Positions 17,945 through 37,410 of a stretch of 64,000 nt of DNA are shown here, one piece after another. The notes beneath the pieces are model-generated. The model ran no database searches. It was not told the DNA's origin and was given only the letters and a program-made list of their open reading frames with translations. Numbering within the stretch: the first letter of the stretch is position 1; every line of letters begins with the position of its first letter. The DNA comes from Actinomadura atramentaria DSM 43919. GTDB taxonomy: Bacteria > Actinomycetota > Actinomycetes > Streptosporangiales > Streptosporangiaceae. The stretch is taken from positions 124,001 to 188,000 of the forward strand of contig NZ_KB907211.1 of the NCBI RefSeq assembly GCF_000381885.1. The letters run 5' to 3'. A program made the position numbers and the translations under genes.

Positions 17945-18026
17945 AGCGACAAGCCTGCCCCTCGCGGCGCACCCGTGCCGATACCGAACGGCACGAAGTT
18001 TGACGGCGGCCGTTTGTACGACTCCT

Positions 18027-18039
18027 ACAGTTTCACTGT
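18027..18039 (-). promoter_or_regulatory. palindromic site upstream of fabD
   Basis: ACAGTTTCACTGT: perfect 5-3-5 inverted repeat about 85 bases before the fabD start and directly beside the dispersed element. It could bind the FasR-type activator or another regulator. No experimental consensus is known to me that it matches. Confidence 0.35.
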
Positions 18040-18248
18040 GGGGGGCGACCCCCCACGCCCCCCGCGGCGCGAAGCGCCGCATCCTCGCTCCGCTGCGGTG
18101 CGGCGCTTCGCGCTGCGGGCGCCCGGCCGCTCGCCTGGCGGCTCGCGGCCGTGCGCCCGCCGGTGACCCCCTTCGGTTGCTGCTCGTTCGCGGGGGCGCC
18201 CTCGCTCGCTTCGCTTCGCTTTGGGGCTTCCCCGCGACTGGGTTTGGC
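18038..18248 (+). repeat. dispersed GC-rich repeat element, copy A
   Basis: About 211 bases, closely similar to the reverse complement of 36082-36304. It begins with the palindrome GGGGGGCGACCCCCC, then GCGGCGCGAAGC, a central tract with CGCCTGGCGGCTCGCGGCCG and a tail with CGCTTCGCTTCGC. It fills the gap between fabD (5' end) and the NUDIX gene (3' end). It does not encode a plausible protein and contains several inverted repeats, so it may be a structured, mobile or recombination-prone intergenic element. Confidence 0.75.
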
Positions 18249-18250
18249 TT

Positions 18251-36081: not shown

Positions 36082-36304
36082 GCCGAAACCCCTCGCGGGG
36101 GAGCCCCGAAGCGAAGCGAAGCAAGCGAGGGCGCCCCCGCGAACGGCGAGCCACCGAGGGGGGTCGAAACCGCGCGCGCACGGCCGCGAGCCGCCAGGCG
36201 AGTGGCCGGGCGCGCGCAGCGCGGAGGATGCACCGGAGCGGAGCGCTAGCGGAGTGAGGATGCATGCTTCGCGCCGCGGGGGGTGTGGGGGGTCGTCCCC
36301 CCAC
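36082..36304 (-). repeat. dispersed GC-rich repeat element, copy B
   Basis: About 223 bases, inverted relative to copy A at 18038-18248. Shared blocks, read on the minus strand: GACCCCCCAC, CCGCGGCGCGAAGC, CGCCTGGCGGCTCGCGGCCG, GCGGGGGCGCCCTCGCT. Copy B has about 12 extra bases near GCTAGCGCTCCGCT. It lies downstream of the phosphoribulokinase gene and upstream of the solute-binding fusion. Confidence 0.75.
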
Positions 36305-36315
36305 AAACAAACCGA

Positions 36316-36438: not shown

Positions 36439-37410
36439 TCAGGCGGCTTGGCGGTGGTCCGCGTCGAGCAGGTGGTAGAGCAGGAGGAGCTGGGTGATCG
36501 CGAGGGGGTCGCTGGTGCCTTCGCCGAAGCGGCCGAGGGCGTCGGGGTCGAGGCGGCCGTTTCCGGCGCGGGGCCCGAGCCGGTCCCAGATGGCCTTCTT
36601 CACGATCTCCGACTCGTGGGGCTGGACGTAGCCGTGGACGTGGAGCGCGTCGACCGGCCGGCCGTCGTCGTCGCGGTGGAGGCTGAGGTGCATGGCGTTC
36701 TCGGCGCCGGCGGGGCGGGACTCGTCGAGGACGGTGCCGAGGTCGGGGTGGTCGATGGTGGGCCGCAGCAGCAGTTCGGCGGACAGCGGGGTGCCGGGCG
36801 GGTCGACGCGTCCGGCGACGGGCGCGAACCGCACGACGATGTCGGCCCAGCGGCGCTGCGGGCGGATGTAGGCGGCGCTTTCGGGTTCGCGGCGGGCGAG
36901 TTCGGCTTTGACCTGCTCGGGGTTGTAGCCGCGTTTGCCGCAGTCGCGCTGTTCTTTCCAGGTGTGGCGGAGGGGTTCGGGCGGGTCGAGGTAGACCGTG
37001 ATGTCGAAGCAGGCGCGGGCGAGGCGCGTGTGGAGGGGCAGGAGGCCCTCGACGATGACGAATTCCTTGGGCGTCACGAGTTCCGGCCGGACGAGTTCGC
37101 CGGTGGAGTGGTCGTAGACGGGTTTGAGGATGGGTTCGCCCATCGACAGGAGCTGGAGGTGCTGCTCCATGATGTCGATGTGGTTGCAGTCGGGGTGGAG
37201 CGCGGTGAACGGCTTGCCGACGCGTTCCTTGCGGTCGTAGCGGTGGTAGTCGTCCACGCAGACCGCGGTCATGCGGTCCGCACCGAGGCATTCCACGAGC
37301 CCCTTGGTCAGGGTGGTCTTGCCCGCCGCGCTGTCGCCGGCGATGGCGAGCATGACGGGGCGGCGGCCCGAGTCGCGCGCCCTGAGCATGTGCACGATCC
37401 GATGGGGCAC
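36439..37410 (-). CDS. prk: phosphoribulokinase (class II, cyanobacterial/plant-like)
   Basis: 323 residues. Phosphorylates ribulose-5-phosphate to ribulose-1,5-bisphosphate, the RuBisCO substrate. P-loop GDSAAGKTT near residue 25; then VCVDDYHRYDRKER (substrate Asp/His/Arg), KPVYDHSTG, and VEGLLPLHTRLARACFDITVYLDP. DDYHxxDR and PxYxHxTG mark the class II enzymes; a plain uridine kinase would be shorter and lack the C-terminal half. It lies 4.4 kb from cbbL on the other strand. The regulatory cysteine pair of chloroplast enzymes is not evident. Confidence 0.85.
   Translation of the reverse strand: MPHRIVHMLRARDSGRRPVMLAIAGDSAAGKTTLTKGLVECLGADRMTAVCVDDYHRYDRKERVGKPFTALHPDCNHIDIMEQHLQLLSMGEPILKPVYDHSTGELVRPELVTPKEFVIVEGLLPLHTRLARACFDITVYLDPPEPLRHTWKEQRDCGKRGYNPEQVKAELARREPESAAYIRPQRRWADIVVRFAPVAGRVDPPGTPLSAELLLRPTIDHPDLGTVLDESRPAGAENAMHLSLHRDDDGRPVDALHVHGYVQPHESEIVKKAIWDRLGPRAGNGRLDPDALGRFGEGTSDPLAITQLLLLYHLLDADHRQAA

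Follow-up and report, generated by a model that had tools for sequence, protein, structure and literature searches.

The two similar stretches in a 64,000-nucleotide piece of the genome of Actinomadura atramentaria DSM 43919 (hereafter the window) are copies of a repeat that we read, with somewhat better than even confidence, as a dispersed non-autonomous palindromic insertion element of Actinomadura, which would in addition serve as a two-way hairpin cluster at transcript ends. The element combines a short head, which is inserted DNA occurring genus-wide, with a hairpin-forming body that is nearly species-specific, and the resulting composite sits at gene ends.

Two minus-strand genes flank copy 1 (18030-18250, plus strand): fabD, whose product has an acyltransferase domain and whose start side faces the copy, and a NUDIX gene, which adjoins it with its 3' end. 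Copy 2 (36082-36305, minus strand) lies between a solute-binding-protein gene and a gene of the PRK/uridine-kinase family, the latter with its 3' end towards the copy. The earlier note had matched 18038-18248 to the reverse complement of 36082-36304, and BLAST indeed aligns 18037-18245 with 36305-36086 (minus) at 83% over 223 columns. Since the local alignment score of 262 compares with a maximum of 46 in 300 Markov-shuffled pairs, composition alone, low-complexity composition included, does not account for the similarity. The description of the two as an inverted pair is correct in that they are opposite to each other, but this is nothing special, both orientations being found throughout the genome. 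As the note had supposed in seeing no convincing protein, our own codon-usage gene caller places no gene in 18030-18250 or 36082-36305, even if mechanical ORFs do cross copy 1. A coding function for the short frame MRRFAPRGVWG.. was rejected on inspection of the sequences: the loop is 3 nt long in some copies and 4 in others, so that the frame shifts, and its variable base falls at a second codon position.

The end of conservation in the fabD region adjoins the start of copy 1: of 64 other Actinomadura genomes, 60 match this region as far as 18029, one each as far as 18034 and 18032, and two less far, and one genome (G009) has a head-like match 12 nt beyond the end of its fabD-region match. 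Upstream of fabD, a TTTGTACNACNCCTACA-like block (17960-18029), probably a promoter or operator, is conserved across those relatives for which the sequence before fabD was compared. As for the PRK/uridine-kinase family gene (36439-37395; L165), its 83% ortholog in A. madurae (L224) also has a head at its 3' end; that head points its tail to the gene, and it and copy 2 are therefore probably independent insertions in the same gap.

The anatomy of the element is modular. The head consists of TGTGGGGGG-nCGA-CCCCCCA and a second C6 tract, with no T run after either run of C, and the copies share TTGTGGGGGG-(n)CGA-CCCCCCAC-R-CCCCCC, after which come the long hairpins 2 and 3 and, in the longest copies only, a third, hairpin 4. 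In copy 1 (all plus strand), the conserved head (TGTGGGGGG-CGA-CCCCCCA and second C6 tract) occupies 18037-18063, and the inverted repeats that fold into hairpins are hairpin 2 at 18061-18119 (21-nt arms 18061-18081 and 18099-18119), hairpin 3 at 18115-18160 (21-nt arms 18115-18135 and 18140-18160) and hairpin 4 at 18188-18237 (arms 18188-18201 and 18224-18237). In copy 2 (all minus strand), they are the head at 36278-36306, recognised by conserved sequence and with loop ACGA, hairpin 3 at 36172-36217 (arms 36172-36192 and 36197-36217) and hairpin 4 at 36093-36142 (arms 36093-36106 and 36129-36142), the latter two again by inverted repeat and folding. The loop of hairpin 2 is often CTCCGCTNGCGCTCCG, which occurs exactly 36 times in the genome of the window species. 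Composites measure about 140-220 bp, and several copies have complementary ends such as GTTCC/GGAAC. Inverted repeats are abundant in both window copies, which fold as successive hairpins with z-scores of -6.5 (copy 1) and -5.8 (copy 2) against 200 dinucleotide shuffles each.

That two copies within the window implied many in the genome has also proved right. A covariance model (R1), built together with its alignment (A1) from 25 of 30 loci (L002, L005, L009, L017 and L022 were left out, the locus set before alignment having kept 28 of 30), matches the 6.71-Mb genome at full length 53 times (E<=1.3e-7). Two of these matches (C1:758772 and C18:145561) represent a single locus that appears at the ends of two contigs, with identical flanks. 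A DNA search of the genome, in which 40 of 389 candidates were scored, lists at least 58 matches. Within the genome, copies have a median identity of 92% to their nearest neighbour and of 82% over all pairs. Five full-length matches, including the two from the duplicated locus, are no more than about 130 bases away from the end of a contig, and the element seems to break assemblies. No Rfam family matches it at gathering score, and a k-mer count on contig C2 returned coding-type k-mers only.

The head is inserted DNA: at four sites within genes, one lineage has it and relatives do not, the net difference in length being 42, 45, 45 and 45 bp. These are (i) a sugar-ABC ATPase gene, where G012 (at this locus 100% identical to Actinomadura sp. 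KC06) and G064 carry a 42-bp insert and the 14 other relatives compared are shorter by exactly 42 bp, (ii) the pfkB kinase gene of sp. 7K507, with a 45-bp insert of which 13 of 15 relatives lack exactly 45 bp, one 39 and one 30, (iii) a polyketide synthase of sp. K4S16 and (iv) a gene of sp. KC216 without a Pfam family, the last two each with a net 45 bp against one relative. The aligned sites have no consistent target duplication, a shared GTC being possible at one of them (L212). All six frames of the 45-bp insert examined are free of stop codons, which makes in-frame insertion survivable. The 117 distinct heads of relatives are a sample shaped by retrieval, and the pattern that selected loci from a scan of 84,980 species included the second C tract. 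Twenty-nine of the 117 fall within called genes, 30 nt or more from both ends, some of them near gene ends or in tandem arrays (L240, L259, L290, L299) where the gene caller may err. Twenty-four of the 29 read in three of the six frames, as VGGRPPT-, GGRGGSSPH- or CGGTTPH-like peptides, and two are in orthologous phosphoglycerate kinases, which have extra residues there when compared at protein level with solved chains. The inspection of empty sites that the earlier note had proposed covers, for the head, these four in-gene sites and, for the composite, a single site, far shorter in two relatives. There, two convergent genes are 614 nt apart in the window species, with two copies tail to tail, 51 nt apart in G010 and 21 nt in G016, the gap ranging from 20 to 1248 nt across 11 relatives in which both genes were compared; the stop codon of one gene, TAG in G010 and G016, is TAA here, joined to the TTGTGG of the element. 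Copy number and this one compared site lead us to infer that the composite itself moves. No composite was seen inside a gene in frame. The intergenic location first ascribed to the element holds for the long form in the window species, but not for the head module, which is also found inside protein genes of related species.

Other arrangements were observed around such sites. At the 614-nt site, G058 and G014 (L308 and L312) bear another multi-hairpin element after the same gene, akin to this one but distinct, whose head is CCAGGGGGnCGACCCCCTGG and whose loop is of CTCCGCTGG type. At the fabD-fabH junction of G078 (L056), the head occurs in two tandem units that include the gene-start-like ATGACCGAGCG.., and relatives are 99-126 nt shorter. 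Three loci of sp. NBRC 104412 (L239, L243 and L246) differ mutually by 87-88 nt at the head, and these differences in length suggest tandem units.

Head and body differ in their distribution. The exact head is present in 43 of 65 genomes of the genus (none for the reversed control), and a DNA search with the head region has matches in all 24 genus genomes tried and weak ones in 4 of 16 others. In a scan of 84,980 species (one genome per species), the exact head was found in 92 stretches, and the 80 that were listed comprise 79 from Actinomadura and one from an actinobacterial MAG. In other species, 25 of 31 heads have ACGA, GCGA, TCGA or CGA as their loop, and 26 have the second C6 tract in full. 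The long body, in contrast, matches the model at E<=1e-5 in only 5 of 64 other genomes of the genus (a search with stricter filters and 45 candidates scored per genome), with a best score of 64.9 bits against 164.8 here, and on these comparisons is nearly private to the window species. A plasmid or phage origin was rejected, as the composite has no match in the plasmid and phage collections.

The earlier note had also called for folding with covariation. The folds beat shuffles; the RNAalifold covariation term within the species is weak (-0.11 kcal/mol), with two-sided change in 3 of 39 pairs. Any rewriting of stems is not visible at this level because the alignment varies too little. Across species, 26 dissimilar stems around the fixed loop have an arm-pairing score sum of 274, against a maximum of 201 in 20,000 permutations, and a score of at least 12 is reached by 12 of 26 matched arm pairs versus 15 of 650 swapped ones; the 26 include several loci that are single matches in other genera, which works against the reading. 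In G422, another genus of the same family, 8 of the 9 stretches compared have the head followed by the CTCCGCTNGCGCTCCG loop on stems of their own. The matched arms and the G422 stretches together argue that the hairpin is retained while the sequence of its stem gets replaced, which could come about because the fold is selected or because template switching rewrites the two arms together. What counts against the preferred reading is the abundance of CTCCGCTNGCGCTCCG in G379, of another family, which has 38 copies on other stems and no such head in the stretches compared. A similar but separate repeat class, consisting of many long palindromes of type TGGTCGAGTAG..GGTCTCGATACGGGCTCCGCTNGCGCTCCG, is found in G379 as well (L329-L334).

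As to placement relative to genes, both neighbours were called for 47 of the 53 copies placed (by our own codon-usage caller, for which starts are approximate), giving 17 copies in convergent, 27 in co-directional and 3 in divergent gaps, counts that are partly dependent since tandem copies share neighbours. On contig C2, divergent gaps make up 31.5% of intergenic bases and 26% of gaps, and they are therefore avoided (p 3.5e-5; by gaps 6e-4), while convergent gaps are favoured (p 1.5e-4). The two ends of the element also differ: 14 of 30 head ends, but 0 of 34 tail ends, have a facing stop codon within 8 nt (Fisher p 3e-6). TAA makes up 5 of these 14 stops, compared with 38 of the 626 genes of contig C2 (p 0.0014; 42 of 51 rows were used for the flank profile). 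Of 78 intergenic heads in relatives that have a neighbour on each side, 72 have a gene end facing them on at least one side; 44 of the 78 are in a co-directional gap and point to the start of the following gene, and a distance of 5-60 nt separates 27 of 53 head-side starts from the head. These heads shortly before starts are awkward for a plain terminator.

The mechanism that we favour runs as follows. The minimal mobile unit is a 42-45 bp foldback made of the head hairpin, the second C6 tract and, in several copies, complementary ends, which has been inserted repeatedly at new sites, including in frame within protein genes. In the window species, the heads bear the longer body, with its two or three strong hairpins, and the composite sits mainly at downstream gene ends, its head often fused to the stop codon. 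There, the cluster would stop or protect transcripts in both directions, as a U-tract-less terminator or a 3'-end protector. Spread would depend on an enzyme supplied in trans, or on template switching at the foldback; a search of the window species' genome with the Y1_Tnp profile (PF01797) for such a mobilising enzyme gave no match, the same profile matching 5 of 14 control genomes. A more ambitious reading is rather unlikely: a genus-specific foldback of 42-45 bp would spread without a transposase of its own (through hairpin-templated copying or a host enzyme reading the fold), its conserved G6-TGT-G6-TCGN-C6 strand and C6-ACA-C6 mirror partner could form an intramolecular triplex, and it would dock at stop codons and acquire hairpin bodies peculiar to each species, both arms of a stem changing as a matched pair while the loop stays fixed. 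The genus would thereby gain mobile two-way transcript ends, and its essential enzymes ready-made flexible loops.

The main competitor, possible if on balance unlikely, is selfish palindromic DNA without a role at gene ends, inserted widely and then lost from promoters and most coding sequences. In-gene insertions and the avoidance of divergent, promoter-bearing gaps speak for it. However, loss alone does not give heads, rather than tails, that abut stops, nor stems that stay paired through sequence change, even if an insertion preference combined with template switching could yield both. A classical MITE, that is, an internally deleted IS remnant moved by the transposase of that IS, is improbable: the element is inserted, non-autonomous and provided in several copies with complementary ends, but the aligned sites show no consistent target duplication, no two heads are 400-4000 bp apart in the loci of relatives compared (many of only 3 kb) and no parent element was found among the IS families covered, which were Y1 only. 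Vertically inherited terminators kept alike by constraint without movement would fit the gene-end placement and the head sites common to several species (L230/L253/L237), but are very improbable given filled and empty in-gene sites, which disfavour this reading for the head, and a body common to about 50 loci of one genome yet nearly absent from congeners.

Two prospects follow. Palindromic insertion elements that sit in frame have been described chiefly in Rickettsia (PMC1950309, PMC2229807), and the Actinomadura group, with copies even in phosphoglycerate kinase, would let the movement of transposase-less palindromes be examined by species comparison. The long form, for its part, offers about fifty similar hairpin clusters, most of them at gene ends, as a natural series in which termination in a GC-rich genome could be measured.

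How does the element compare with known systems? No description of it was found in the literature searched by topic and sequence pieces, a body of text mostly without subscription papers. REP/REPIN sequences, which go with a RAYT transposase, are short, high-copy, dispersed palindromes lying mostly between genes (PMC3116915, PMC2817692), and to this extent they are like the Actinomadura element, which differs by its in-frame insertion in genes and its large species-specific bodies; membership of this class was rejected because the genome of the window species has no match to the Y1 (TnpA-REP/RAYT) transposase (PF01797). Bacterial MITEs (ERIC/RU, Correia/NMIS, RUP) are small non-autonomous repeats, some intragenic with open frames (PMC2229807), whereas the Actinomadura unit is shorter and showed neither a consistent target duplication nor, with Y1 alone covered, a parent IS. 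In Streptomyces clavuligerus, GC stem-loop 3' ends without a U-tract, some of them bidirectional, have been described (PMC8269248), and the strong GC stem-loops of the element resemble these I-shaped, U-lacking terminators, with the difference that here they are known from sequence and would be supplied by one dispersed family. The nearest known kind is the Rickettsia palindromic elements, likened by description rather than by sequence. These are palindromic and non-autonomous and occur both between genes and, in frame, inside them (PMC1950309, PMC2229807, PMC2635572), some of the genes encoding conserved enzymes (PMC1950309, PMC2229807), at lengths of 105-146 bp (PMC2229807), or 25-102 bp in one spacer (PMC1950309). 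The Actinomadura element is likewise a palindromic foldback, whose head occurs in spacers and, in relatives, in frame inside genes, but its inserts measure 42-45 bp rather than about 105-146 bp, and it belongs to another phylum, where a genus-specific head is joined to a composite long form.
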